Part shown: positions 11,302-15,524 of the stretch, one piece after another
How positions within the stretch are numbered: position 1 is the first letter of the stretch
Layout: each line of letters opens with the position of its first letter
Assembly (NCBI GenBank): GCA_018712955.1
Contig: DVGB01000075.1
Coordinates: 1-32,444, forward strand
Direction: 5' to 3'
Length of the DNA stretch: 32,444 bases
From: Candidatus Aveggerthella stercoripullorum
Lineage (GTDB): Bacteria; Actinomycetota; Coriobacteriia; Coriobacteriales; Eggerthellaceae
Notes under the pieces: generated by a model
Database searches by the model: none
Seen by the model: the letters and a program-made list of their open reading frames with translations, nothing else
Told to the model about the DNA's origin: nothing
Made by a program: the position numbers and the translations under genes

Positions 11302-12339
11302 ATGTTGTATCGAGTGATCGACGCGACGGAGCTCCCAGCCCTGGTGGAAGCGTTCATGGAATCGTACGAAGTGGTAGCTCCGGTCAAACGCGACCGGGGC
11401 TACGCTTTTGAGGCCATCGAATCGTTCGACCAGGTGGTCCTGGACTATGTCTCCACCATCGTGTCGCCGAAGAAGTACTTCCTGCCGCCCCAAGAGCCCC
11501 TGTTCGCCTTCGACCGCCAATCCAACGATGTGGCGGAGTTCTCCGCCGAGGTCACACCGCGCGTTATCTTCGGCGCGCATGCGTGCGACATCAATGCGCT
11601 GTGCCGTCTGGACACGGTATTCCGCGACGGTCGCTACCCTGACCCGTACTATTGCGCACGGCGCGAGGCAACGCTTATCGTGGGCATTAGCTGCATGCCG
11701 GGTCCCGATTGCTTCTGCCACCTGCTCGGCAGCGACGAGGCGCGCTTCGGCTACGACCTTTTCCTGCAGGATATCGGAGGCAAATACCTCGTCAGCATTT
11801 CGAGCGTCGAGGCGGCGAACATTCTGGAAGCAGCCTGCAACGTGCGCGAAGCAACCGACGAGGACCGCATCGAGTTCCGCCACGCTACCCGTCGTCGTCA
11901 GGCGGCCTTCAATCCCGACATCCCCAACATCCAAGAGATCGCCATGCTCATGGACGCGTTCCATGAGGACGCATTCTGGGAGGAGCTTGGCGGGCGTTGC
12001 CTGTCATGCGGCGCATGCGCGGCGGTATGCCCCACGTGCCACTGTTTCGATATTCGCGATGTGCTGGAGCCTGACGGAAAGTCAGGCCAGCGTGTCCGCA
12101 TTTCCGACTGCTGCACGGACCCGCAGTTCGCGCTTGTTGCGGGAGGCCATAATTTCCGCGAGTCCAGCGACCTGCGCGTGCGGCATCGCTTCTATCACAA
12201 GCTCAACGGTTTCCTGGCGAACCACGACCGCATGCTGTGCGTAGGCTGCGGCCGTTGCGTGACGGCGTGCAAGGCCGACATCAATCCCATCGAAGTGCTG
12301 AAGTTCTTCGCGAGGAAGGGGGCCGAGAATGCTGAATAG
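11302..12339 (+). CDS. hydB: [NiFe] hydrogenase (group 3b-like) beta subunit, 4Fe-4S electron-transfer protein
   Basis: 345 residues related to sulfhydrogenase beta and anaerobic sulfite reductase subunit A. It carries electrons between the hydrogenase core and the flavin subunit. Two [4Fe-4S] motifs are seen: C233-x2-C236-x2-C239-x3-C243 (CLSCGACAAVCPTCHCF, with extra Cys 246 and 248) and C313-x2-C316-x2-C319-x3-C323 (CVGCGRCVTACKADINP). The N-terminal half holds the family domain with GAHACDINALCRLD and ISCMPGPDCFCHLLGSD. The ribosome site is AAAGGG about 6 bases before the ATG. Its end overlaps the next gene by 11 bases, a sign of translational coupling. Confidence 0.9.
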   Translation: MLYRVIDATELPALVEAFMESYEVVAPVKRDRGYAFEAIESFDQVVLDYVSTIVSPKKYFLPPQEPLFAFDRQSNDVAEFSAEVTPRVIFGAHACDINALCRLDTVFRDGRYPDPYYCARREATLIVGISCMPGPDCFCHLLGSDEARFGYDLFLQDIGGKYLVSISSVEAANILEAACNVREATDEDRIEFRHATRRRQAAFNPDIPNIQEIAMLMDAFHEDAFWEELGGRCLSCGACAAVCPTCHCFDIRDVLEPDGKSGQRVRISDCCTDPQFALVAGGHNFRESSDLRVRHRFYHKLNGFLANHDRMLCVGCGRCVTACKADINPIEVLKFFARKGAENAE

Positions 12340-13240
12340 CTGCGCTGTTTCCACCGTCCACGTCTCTCCGCTCGCTGAGTACACGCCCGAGCTTACGGGC
12401 GCCCAGATGATCGCGGCGAATCCTTACCGGCCTTGGCCTGCGCGCATCACGTCCATCCAGGAGCTCACCGCGACCGAGAAGCTGTTCGAAATGCGCATCG
12501 TGGACGAGCGTATCCGCGAGGCGTTCCGCCATCAGCCGGGCCAGTTCGTGGAAGTGAGCATCTTCGGGGTGGGCGAAGCTCCCATCTCCATCACGAGCTC
12601 GCCGACCAAGCAGGGCTTTATCGAGCTGTGCATTCGCAACACAGGTGCGTTCACGAGCCGTTTGCACCAGCTGCAGTGCGGCGACATCGTCGGCCTGCGC
12701 GGCCCGTACGGCAGGGGATTTCCTGTCGAACAGATGAAGGGCAGCGACATCCTGCTCGTCGCGGGCGGCATCGGCATCGCACCGTTGCGCTCGCTTATCA
12801 ACAACATCCATGACGAGCGTTCGGAGTTCGGCAAGGTCACTATCATCTATGGCTCGCGTTCGCCCAAAGAGGTCATGTTCCGCGACCAGTTCGAAATGTG
12901 GCGTCATCGCAAAGACTTCGACCTTCACTTGACCGTCGACCACCCCGATGACACGTGGGATGCGGAGGTAGGCGTGGTCACCAAACCGCTCGAGTCGTTG
13001 GAGATCGATCCGGCGAACACGTACGGCGCCGTGTGCGGGCCGCCGGTCATGTACCGGTTCGTCATCGACGCCATGCGTCGCCAGGGCGTGAGCTACGACC
13101 ATATCTACTGCAGTTTCGAGCGCCATATGAAGTGCGGCATGGGCAAATGCGGCCATTGCCAGATCGGGCATCAGTACGTCTGCTTGGACGGGCCGGTGTT
13201 CAACTACTGGGAAGCCAAGAACATTCAGGGGTCGATGTAA
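12329..13240 (+). CDS. hydG: [NiFe] hydrogenase gamma subunit, FAD/NAD(P)-binding reductase
   Basis: 303 residues of the ferredoxin-NADP reductase fold, as in sulfhydrogenase gamma and sulfite reductase subunit B. FAD-binding part: PGQFVEVSIFG and ITSSPTKQGFIELCIRNTG. Nucleotide part: ILLVAGGIGIAPLRSLI and YGSRSPKEVMFRDQ. A C-terminal [2Fe-2S] site is C269-x4-C274-x2-C277 with C285 (KCGMGKCGHCQIG then YVC). It passes electrons between the iron-sulfur chain and NAD(P)(H). The start lies inside the last codons of the beta gene, with GAGGAAGGGGG as ribosome site. The next gene begins directly after its stop. NAD versus NADP preference cannot be read safely. Confidence 0.92.
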   Translation: MLNSCAVSTVHVSPLAEYTPELTGAQMIAANPYRPWPARITSIQELTATEKLFEMRIVDERIREAFRHQPGQFVEVSIFGVGEAPISITSSPTKQGFIELCIRNTGAFTSRLHQLQCGDIVGLRGPYGRGFPVEQMKGSDILLVAGGIGIAPLRSLINNIHDERSEFGKVTIIYGSRSPKEVMFRDQFEMWRHRKDFDLHLTVDHPDDTWDAEVGVVTKPLESLEIDPANTYGAVCGPPVMYRFVIDAMRRQGVSYDHIYCSFERHMKCGMGKCGHCQIGHQYVCLDGPVFNYWEAKNIQGSM

Positions 13241-14026
13241 ATGAGCGGATACGAAAACGTTGCTTACGACAGCCCGCGTCCGCCGCGGGTGGTCGTCTTC
13301 AGCCTGGCAAGCTGCTTCGGCTGCCAGGTCATGATCACGAACATCGAATCGCACCTGCTCGATGTGCTGGGACAGATCGACCTGCGCTATTGGCAGCTGG
13401 CTTCCAGCGTGCCGATGCCGGAGGACTACGACGTCGCCGTCATCGAGGGCGCAGTGACCACCGAAGAGTCCGAAGCTCTCGTGCGCAAGATCCGTGCGAC
13501 CGCTAAGACGGTCATATCCATCGGAGCCTGTGCGAACACGGCGGGCATTCCCGGCATGGCGGCAGACCACTACTACGAGCGGCCTATCGAGGTCTACGAC
13601 GAGGTTCCGGAAGCTGCCGGCACCATCATCCAGCCGCGCAGCGTGCCGTCCGTCATCAAAGTGGACGGCCAGGTGCTTTGCTGCCCGATCGACCCGCTCG
13701 ATTTCGTCGCGACGCTCCAGAGCGCGCTCTACGGCTCGAACCGCATGAACTCCACGAAGACTCTCTGCGGCGACTGCAAACTGAACGGCACGTCGTGCTT
13801 CTACGGCAAGGGCATCGTCTGCCTGGGCATGGTGACGCAGGCAGGATGCGGGGCGCGCTGCGTGAACCTCGGCCGTCCGTGCAACGGATGTGCAGGGTTG
13901 TCCGTTGATGCGAACCTCGACTCTGCGCGCGAGGCCTGCGAGCGCTACGGTGTGAGCGTCCAGGAATTCGACGAGGCGCTTGAGATGTTCAACCAGACGA
14001 ATTCCGCCCTCAAGGCGAGGAGGTAG
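13241..14026 (+). CDS. hydD: [NiFe] hydrogenase delta (small) subunit
   Basis: 261 residues, related to the 20-kDa/PSST subunit of complex I and to small subunits of group 3 hydrogenases. The proximal [4Fe-4S] ligands start with C25-x2-C28 (SLASCFGCQVM), then the Cys in SIGACANTAGIPGM. The C-terminal half has further Cys clusters (LCGDCKLNGTSC, and CLGMVTQAGCGARCVNLGR then PCNGCAG) for medial and distal clusters. It relays electrons from the nickel-iron site to beta and gamma. There is no twin-arginine signal peptide, so the enzyme is cytoplasmic. The ATG directly abuts the gamma stop codon, and the alpha gene begins 3 bases after its own stop. Confidence 0.92.
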   Translation: MSGYENVAYDSPRPPRVVVFSLASCFGCQVMITNIESHLLDVLGQIDLRYWQLASSVPMPEDYDVAVIEGAVTTEESEALVRKIRATAKTVISIGACANTAGIPGMAADHYYERPIEVYDEVPEAAGTIIQPRSVPSVIKVDGQVLCCPIDPLDFVATLQSALYGSNRMNSTKTLCGDCKLNGTSCFYGKGIVCLGMVTQAGCGARCVNLGRPCNGCAGLSVDANLDSAREACERYGVSVQEFDEALEMFNQTNSALKARR

Positions 14027-14029
14027 GCT

Positions 14030-15319
14030 ATGGCGAAGTCCACGATCAACGTCGACCACGTCGCGCGCGTGGAAGGCCACGGCGACATTCGCGTGGTCAT
14101 CTCTGACGGCGCGGTCGAGTCTGTCCAGATGCGCGTGGTTGAGCCCGCCCGCCTGTTCGAGAGCATGGTCCGCGGCAGGAGCTTCAACGAGGTCTCTTAT
14201 ATTGCCTCCCGTATTTGCGGCATTTGCTCGGCAACGCACGTCGTGACCGACCTTAAGGCCGTCGAGGCGGCATTTGGCGTCGAGGTGACCGAACGCACGA
14301 AAGACCTGCGCGAGCTCATGGTCTACGGCTCTTACATCCAAAACCATGCCACGCATCTGTTCGTGTTCGCTGCGCCGGACTTCATCGGGCAGGAGAGCGT
14401 GTTCCCGTTGGCGGAGACCGATCGGGAGCTCTTCGACCAGGCGCTGGCGCTCAAAGCGCTCGGAAACGAGCTTTCCACGAAGGTGGGAGGGCGCCCGGTC
14501 CACCCCATCACGGCGGTGGTAGGCGGCTTTACCTCCGAAATCGCGCCGGACGAATACCGGAAGCTGGCAGACAAGCTCATGGCCGCCATTCCGTTTGCGC
14601 TTAAGACGGTCGACCTGTTCCGTTCGTTCAGGGTGCAGCCGCTTTCGACCGAAGGCGACATGCTGGCAATGGTGGACGCCGACCATTACGCTATCGAGCG
14701 CGCCGACACGGCGCGGTTCTTGAAGGCCCAGGAAGACTTCCATGCATCCGATTACGCAGAACACCTGGAAGAATACCTGGTCGACCATTCGTCCGCGAAA
14801 TTTGCGCGCGTGCGCTCGACGGGGACGCCGTACATGACGGGCGCCTTGGCGCGCGTCAACGCCTCGTGGGACCTTCTCTGCCCGCAGGCGAAAGTGGCGG
14901 CCGCGAAGGCGGGGCTGCGTCCTCCGGAGCTGAATCCGATGATGAACAACGTTGCCCAGGCGGTCGAGATTGTCGACGCGCTCGAGCGGTGTGCCGCCTT
15001 GTGCTTGAAGCTGGCGGACACGGCAGGGGAGGAGACCTCCGAGCCGGTTCCGTTCGAAGTGCGGGCAGGCCGCGGTGTCGGATTCACCGAAGCACCGCGC
15101 GGTGCCGCGTTCCACGACCTGGAGTTCGACGAGGAAGGCCGTGTGGTGCATGCGTCCATCCTTACGCCGACGGCGCAGAACGTCGCGAACCTTGAGGCGG
15201 ACATGCTGCAGCTTGCAAACCTGCTCGTGAACGAAGGCGCTCCCGAGGACGTGGTGAAGCTCGAGGTCGAAAAGCTCGTGCGCGCCTACGACCCGTGCTT
15301 GAGCTGCTCTGTCCATTGA
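14030..15319 (+). CDS. hydA: [NiFe] hydrogenase alpha (large, catalytic) subunit lacking a C-terminal tail
   Basis: 429 residues; H2 activation at the Ni-Fe centre. The N-terminal signature RVEGHGDI is near residue 11, and the first metal motif RICGICSATHV gives C63 and C66. The last motif is DPCLSCSVH with C423, C426 and H429, and H429 is the final residue before TGA. Most large subunits carry a further tail of several to about 30 residues, which a dedicated endopeptidase cuts off after nickel insertion; none is encoded here in frame before the stop. GAGGAGG precedes the ATG. No hyp maturation genes or protease gene occur in the window. A perfect 11-base hairpin overlaps the stop codon. Confidence 0.93.
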   Translation: MAKSTINVDHVARVEGHGDIRVVISDGAVESVQMRVVEPARLFESMVRGRSFNEVSYIASRICGICSATHVVTDLKAVEAAFGVEVTERTKDLRELMVYGSYIQNHATHLFVFAAPDFIGQESVFPLAETDRELFDQALALKALGNELSTKVGGRPVHPITAVVGGFTSEIAPDEYRKLADKLMAAIPFALKTVDLFRSFRVQPLSTEGDMLAMVDADHYAIERADTARFLKAQEDFHASDYAEHLEEYLVDHSSAKFARVRSTGTPYMTGALARVNASWDLLCPQAKVAAAKAGLRPPELNPMMNNVAQAVEIVDALERCAALCLKLADTAGEETSEPVPFEVRAGRGVGFTEAPRGAAFHDLEFDEEGRVVHASILTPTAQNVANLEADMLQLANLLVNEGAPEDVVKLEVEKLVRAYDPCLSCSVH

Positions 15320-15336
15320 TCTGACGATCAATGGAC
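15311..15336 (+). repeat. Perfect stem-loop overlapping the hydrogenase alpha stop codon
   Basis: GTCCATTGATC (15311-15321) and GATCAATGGAC (15326-15336) are exact inverse complements around TGAC. The last His codon (15314-15316) and the TGA (15317-15319) lie inside the left arm. No T tract follows. It could protect the mRNA 3' end or slow terminating ribosomes. Confidence 0.7.
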
Positions 15337-15349
15337 GGGCCGACGCTGC

Positions 15350-15450
15350 GAAGCGCGGAGAGGCCCCATCTTGTCGTTCAAACGCCCTGCGGCGGACTGA
15401 AGTCCAGCCGCAGGGCGTTTTCGCGCTAATCTGGGGCCTCTCCGTGCTTC
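15350..15450. repeat. Nested inverted repeat with 19-base outer arms
   Basis: Positions 15350-15368 (GAAGCGCGGAGAGGCCCCA) and 15432-15450 (TGGGGCCTCTCCGTGCTTC) are inverse complements except for one G-T wobble. The 63 bases between them hold a second, independent strong hairpin (15380-15421). Transcribed, the whole would fold into a long stem enclosing a second stem. No transposase or target-site duplication is seen. Confidence 0.75.
15380..15422 (+). terminator. Intrinsic terminator of the hydrogenase operon
   Basis: AAACGCCCTGCGGC (15380-15393) pairs with GCCGCAGGGCGTTT (15407-15420); GGACT/AGTCC extends the stem inward with one bulged A. Four T end the right arm (15418-15421). It is nearly symmetrical, so it could also act on the minus strand. 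Confidence 0.75.
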
Positions 15451-15489: not shown

Positions 15490-15524
15490 GTGTGAAAAGG
15501 GGTCAGGCACCTTTTCACACTTTT
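15490..15524. repeat. REP-like palindromic element with GGGTCAGGCACC core
   Basis: GTGTGAAAAGG (15490-15500) and CCTTTTCACAC (15510-15520) are exact inverse complements; the loop lies in GGTCAGGCA. TTTT follows (15521-15524), so it may double as a terminator. I recall a similar AAAAGGGGTCAGGCACC motif as an intergenic palindrome in other bacterial genomes, but could not check this. Confidence 0.6.

Follow-up and report, generated by a model that had tools for sequence, protein, structure and literature searches.

Background

The large subunit of a [NiFe] hydrogenase is normally made with an end piece, which a dedicated protease then cuts off. Two views of what this tail does both come from group 3b enzymes. 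In SHI of Pyrococcus furiosus, the tail VVRL is cut by FrxA, and no activity is seen when both proteases are absent (PMC2865534). In HyhL of T. kodakarensis, the C-terminal peptide keeps the site open by strand pairing with the N-terminal region (reviewed in PMC12134894).

The effect of removing the tail genetically depends on the enzyme. The MBH of R. eutropha stays active, whereas E. coli Hyd-2 and the SH of R. eutropha are left without a complete cofactor (PMC7294309). Other hydrogenases are naturally tail-less, namely those of groups 2b, 2d, 4c, 4e, and 4g (PMC7294309; partly repeated in PMC12134894), and their maturation apparently runs through the canonical machinery (PMC7294309). In the open-access literature, group 3b does not appear on the published tail-less lists (PMC7294309, PMC12134894). 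A group 3b enzyme has been reported from a Coriobacteriia isolate (PMC9686372).

The DNA described here, called the window, is a stretch of 32,444 nucleotides from Candidatus Aveggerthella stercoripullorum, a member of the Coriobacteriia. It contains a hydrogenase operon whose large subunit gene stops directly after its C-terminal metal motif.

A group 3b operon

The operon at 11302-15319 is predicted from its sequence to be a group 3b, NAD(P)-linked [NiFe] hydrogenase of the sulfhydrogenase type. Its genes lie on the forward strand in the order beta-gamma-delta-alpha, alpha being the last of four. The beta subunit (11302-12339) is a 4Fe-4S dicluster protein resembling ShyB, HydB, and AsrA (NCBIfam ShyB, 3.9e-75; Pfam Fer4_22). 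The gamma subunit (12329-13240) is an FAD- and NAD(P)-binding reductase resembling ShyC, HydG, and AsrB. It matches NCBIfam PRK08345, named “cytochrome-c3 hydrogenase subunit gamma” (5e-94), and ShyC (3.5e-79), together with Pfam NAD_binding_1 and FAD_binding_6. The delta subunit (13241-14026) is the small, Fe-S subunit and is HydD/ShyD-like (NCBIfam HydD, 2.5e-39; Pfam Oxidored_q6). The alpha subunit (14030-15319) is the large, nickel-iron subunit, 429 residues long and without a C-terminal extension. Thus all four subunit types expected of a group 3b operon are present, with the expected NCBIfam and Pfam domains.

Within the family, alpha lies closest to SHI, ShyA, and HyhL rather than to groups 3a, 3c, 3d, or 1: its best NCBIfam match is ShyA (8.3e-83) and its second HydA, at scores below the equivalog cut-offs, which are set for the Pyrococcus enzymes (for ShyA, 278 against 700 bits). 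A phylogenetic tree likewise places alpha on the side of SHI and apart from 3c-type sequences, the SHI row standing on a long branch. The enzyme is predicted to be a cytoplasmic group 3b hydrogenase with NADP(H)-linked H2 activity.

Structure prediction points the same way. An AlphaFold2 model of alpha (mean pLDDT 90) has the alpha subunit of P. furiosus SHI as its best Foldseek match (TM 0.90, 2.8 A), and fits immature T. kodakarensis HyhL (5yxy) more poorly, at 4.3-5.4 A. The low-confidence residues are 11-14 and 424-429; in a metal-free model with no tailed control, the latter weakly hint at a flexible end in cofactor-free alpha.

The operon is flanked by a nucleoside diphosphate kinase gene upstream and an M42 peptidase gene downstream. 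We know of no tie between either of these and hydrogenase maturation.

The end of the large subunit

The alpha reading frame ends in LVRAYDPCLSCSVH, and a TGA stop (15317-15319, forward strand) follows immediately 3' of the codon for the terminal His. The C-terminal metal motif is DPCLSCSVH (15290-15316, forward strand), with Cys423, Cys426, and the terminal His429. In an alignment of 30 rows, D421, P422, C423, S425, C426, and H429 are invariant. An earlier, sequence-only reading of this DNA had already described the motif followed by TGA, with nothing after the His, and the reading frame at 14030-15319 bears this out. Its span for the feature, 15287-15319, is right at the end but not at the start: position 15287 belongs to the preceding Tyr codon, and the motif begins at 15290.

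Homologues were sought in 398 genomes of the class and found in 150. The short cleavable tail that is typical of group 3b, though not strictly defining, is absent from the Coriobacteriia clade, in which 93 of 93 distinct homologues have a tail of 0 residues and end at the same His. The first three relatives found (91, 90, and 61% identity) all end in SVH, with the stops TAG, TAA, and TAA and with different DNA downstream. Among named records, Candidatus Aveggerthella excrementigallinarum has 90% protein identity to alpha. Naturally tail-less hydrogenases are recognized by a stop directly after the C-terminal motif that is conserved in homologues, and this is the pattern found. The C-termini of close homologues, whose comparison the sequence-only reading had named as one way to check its claim, contain no tail that aligns with the bases after 15319.

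Two observations on the motif concern single residues. Three clade members (L102, L106, and L124) end in DLCLSCSVH, in which the Pro of the DPC motif, elsewhere conserved, is replaced by Leu. The Val that precedes the His was rejected as a sign of tail loss, as it mostly tracks the clade and has exceptions in both directions.

Location of maturation proteases

Searching with a profile of 31 protease ORFs from the class reveals no protease gene in the window, and none near any of the 88 clade loci whose downstream sequence reaches 1 kb or more. Of the 63 tailed group 3b loci of other lineages, 49 have one within the flanks retrieved; for the other 14, the protease may be unlinked, the locus may be close to the end of a contig, or the profile may have missed the gene. 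Over loci of all subgroups with at least 1 kb downstream, a Fisher test compares 47 of 62 with 0 of 93 (p 7e-27, the sequences being related to one another). A phylogeny-aware test of independent pairs has no more than 4 to 5 pairs to work with; those among them that are informative all point the expected way, with a sign test p of about 0.25.

The absence of a protease holds for the surroundings of the operon but not for the genome. One HyaD/HycI-type gene is present, on contig C7, where its neighbours are a cytochrome b-like gene and the gene of a group 1 large subunit with a canonical tail, VTEPATGKHFETVTSPWGVK, after the residues AVH. Two same-genus genomes each carry a pair of proteases: the first lies by the group 1 cytochrome b gene, and the second shares a cluster with HycH, a NuoB-like subunit, and FocA, which is a group 4 locus of the formate-hydrogenlyase type. 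Because they are placed by group 1 and group 4 loci, the protease genes follow other hydrogenases and not the tail-less group 3b enzyme.

Most genomes with a tail-less group 3b enzyme also carry a HycI-family gene. Seven have the enzyme and no HycI-family match (G017, G023, G038, G041, G113, G340, and G381); they are drafts, 59-96% complete, and several have a group 1 enzyme. The genome-wide candidates, including G381, G023, and G041, are draft assemblies, and the class survey found no complete genome with solely tail-less large subunits and no protease.

One alternative is that alpha has no tail and nevertheless needs the genome's group 1-type protease, as a chaperone or nickel checkpoint that does not cleave. 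To our knowledge, such a role for a protease of this kind has no precedent. The presence of a HycI-family gene in most carriers of the enzyme would suit it, as would the case of T. kodakarensis, where two hydrogenases can share one endopeptidase (PMC7654741), but within the genus, those proteases that were examined go with other hydrogenases, and this alternative is considered improbable.

Three further observations concern the same genomes. In genome G199 (locus L277), a HycI-family protease gene lies by recO, and no group 1 large subunit was detected in that genome. In the genome from which the window comes (G000), contig C74 carries a third large-subunit-like gene (L004, 745-1860, reverse strand), which is group 4/NuoD-like, has no tail, and ends in DPCISCTER, with Arg in place of the terminal His. 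Finally, HypD was not found in the assembly from which the window comes (2.18 Mb in 115 contigs, 86% complete), which probably reflects a gap in the assembly. HypD is present in both same-genus genomes, so the cofactor machinery exists in the genus.

Integrity of the operon and of the stop codon

A decaying or inactive operon that lost its tail through truncation is a still less probable explanation. A single genome with a lost 3' end would look the same as the window does. Across the clade, however, the four-gene set is complete and in order at 64 of the 66 loci examined, the residues of the metal motif do not vary in the 30-row alignment, and every member ends exactly at the mature C-terminus.

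The least probable alternative is an artefact, in which a mistake in sequencing or assembly, or else recoding of the TGA, hides a real protein with a 26-residue tail; it has almost nothing left in its favour once the stops and the downstream DNA of relatives are compared. Read-through past the TGA would give SDDQWTGRRCEARRGPILSFKRPAAD before the next TGA at 15398-15400. The gain of 26 codons, first counted in the sequence-only reading and reproduced here, is a normal tail length. A check for recoding was needed because an in-frame TGA occurs in group 1 large subunits of the same class. In many Coriobacteriia, these have TGA at the first Cys of the motif (DP*IGCGVH or DP*VGCGVH, where the asterisk is the TGA) and canonical tails; L149, L152, and L153 (genomes G043, G113, and G017) are examples among many others. 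That TGA is probably selenocysteine, as in enzymes of the [NiFeSe] type.

The alpha stop behaves differently. At 102 distinct tail-less loci, nearly all of this clade, the stop right after the motif is TAG in 53, TAA in 32, and TGA in 17. For two same-genus relatives, identity was followed along the DNA in 30-base windows: it is 0.73-0.97 across the gene's last 300 bases and falls from 0.9 in the last 30 bases to 0.17 and 0.6 directly past the stop. The read-through peptide is not conserved. Because the stop codons vary and identity collapses past the stop, sequence comparison rules out a sequencing error, read-through, and a recoding of the stop as selenocysteine. The caution in the sequence-only reading about a sequencing or stop-codon effect is thereby settled. 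A conserved tail encoded downstream of 15319 was also rejected, since the downstream DNA is unrelated among near relatives.

Repeats downstream of the stop

A perfect hairpin with an 11-bp stem and a 4-nt loop (15311-15336) spans the last two codons and the stop. It is absent from the two nearest relatives. The hairpin is probably incidental or a local structure at the 3' end of the RNA. Whether this inverted repeat marks an insertion or truncation was also weighed; no meaning is claimed for it, as the window holds a handful of perfect hairpins of at least 10 bp and the nearest relatives lack this one.

Further downstream, a long inverted repeat (15350-15450) has 44-nt arms that are 82% complementary, and its inner part, AACGCCCTGCGGC...GCCGCAGGGCGTTTT, ends in a run of T. 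From its sequence, it is likely to be the terminator of the operon. It was not among the hits of a simple terminator scan, which was limited to loops of 3-8 bases. Another perfect 11-bp hairpin lies in the intergenic region (15490-15520, GTGTGAAAAGG...CCTTTTCACAC). Since the genome has a single copy of its core, GGGGTCAGGCACC, it is no dispersed repeat there. The hairpin GTGTGAAAAGGGGTCAGGCACCTTTTCACAC was tried as a dispersed repeat and rejected, its core being single-copy in the genome.

Evolution of the tail

Outside the clade, 63 of the 70 group 3b-type alpha subunits of other lineages have a tail, nearly all of them from other Actinomycetota. These tails are mostly 8 or 9 residues long and start with FL or YL. 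Two plasmids from Burkholderiales and one from Rhodococcus have the same type of tail, and in these an annotated hydrogenase maturation protease gene overlaps the end of alpha. In this sampling of group 3b, which covers Actinomycetota and reaches other phyla through plasmids alone, a tail-less end appears to be unusual.

There are seven tail-less exceptions outside the clade of the window (L142, L143, L144, L216, L218, L221, and L271). The tail is treated here as a variable feature of group 3b because such tail-less members exist in other 3b branches too. The first three of the seven (genomes G043, G191, and G267) end in DPCISCSTH and lack both a tail and an adjacent protease gene within a branch that otherwise has 8-residue tails. 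They represent a possible case of recent and independent tail loss.

A tree of alpha built without the last nine residues keeps the clade of the window together (SH-aLRT 100) and needs five changes of tail state. When tailed sequences of the 3c type serve as the root, it is simpler to assume that an ancestral tail was lost, in a tree where some long branches are poorly placed. A bolder and more tentative scenario, which we regard as somewhat less likely to be right than wrong, is that tail and protease were lost jointly more than once in group 3b, once at the base of the Coriobacteriia-wide clade. It would imply a different nickel checkpoint, free of the protease.

A model for maturation

The favoured reading is that this group 3b alpha subunit is translated at its mature length and matures without a C-terminal protease, which the sequence data make very probable. 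Maturation without the endopeptidase had been proposed in the sequence-only reading; it gains support from the tail-less homologues and from the lack of a protease gene in the window or near the clade loci.

In this model, alpha would be made directly at its finished length, ending at the His of the metal motif. Next, the Hyp machinery would supply the apo-subunit with Fe(CN)2CO and Ni, following the route of the tail-less RH, CooH, and Ech. The last segment, with Cys423, Cys426, and His429, would then close over the site without proteolysis. The fidelity of nickel insertion would have to be checked otherwise, for instance by a small (delta) subunit that refuses an empty large subunit. For RH, it has been suggested that the small subunit turns away large subunits that are empty (PMC7294309).

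The tail-opening model, from HyhL, and the dependence on a protease, from SHI, were both established in group 3b enzymes. A large tail-less clade in the same subgroup would offer matched pairs from nature in which the function of the tail can be studied. If tail and protease were indeed lost jointly, a protease-free nickel checkpoint could be compared directly with that of tailed sisters. Such an operon could perhaps also be produced in E. coli without a co-expressed protease.

Comparison with known hydrogenases

Pyrococcus SHI (HydBGDA) and SHII (ShyBCDA) have the same four subunit types and domains as the Coriobacteriia operon and provide its best NCBIfam and structural matches. The mature end of P. 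furiosus SHI alpha, SVH, is equivalent to the end of the tail-less alpha; in the PDB, the SHI subunit is 428 residues long in 9nez and 424 in 9e15, the latter ending in SVH. The difference is that SHI alpha reaches this end after FrxA removes a 4-residue tail, whereas the Coriobacteriia alpha has none to remove. HyhL of T. kodakarensis, known from an immature structure bound to HypA (5yxy), belongs to the same subgroup and has the same fold, but the C-terminal peptide that holds its site open is missing from the Coriobacteriia alpha.

The tailed group 3b enzymes of other Actinomycetota and of Burkholderiales plasmids have homologous alpha subunits, with roughly 33-42% identity. They differ in having tails, mostly of 8-9 residues (FLDLTVER is one), and in most of them a protease gene lies near alpha or directly after it.

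The H2-sensing RH (2b), the 2d enzymes, the CODH-linked CooH (4c), Ech (4e), and the 4g enzymes likewise have no extension for an endopeptidase to cleave. These are sensors or membrane complexes of other groups, while the Coriobacteriia enzyme belongs to group 3b. Tail-less large subunits as such are already known, and the general picture that some hydrogenases lack tails is unchanged; what appears to be new, relative to the published lists, is a class-wide tail-less branch within group 3b.
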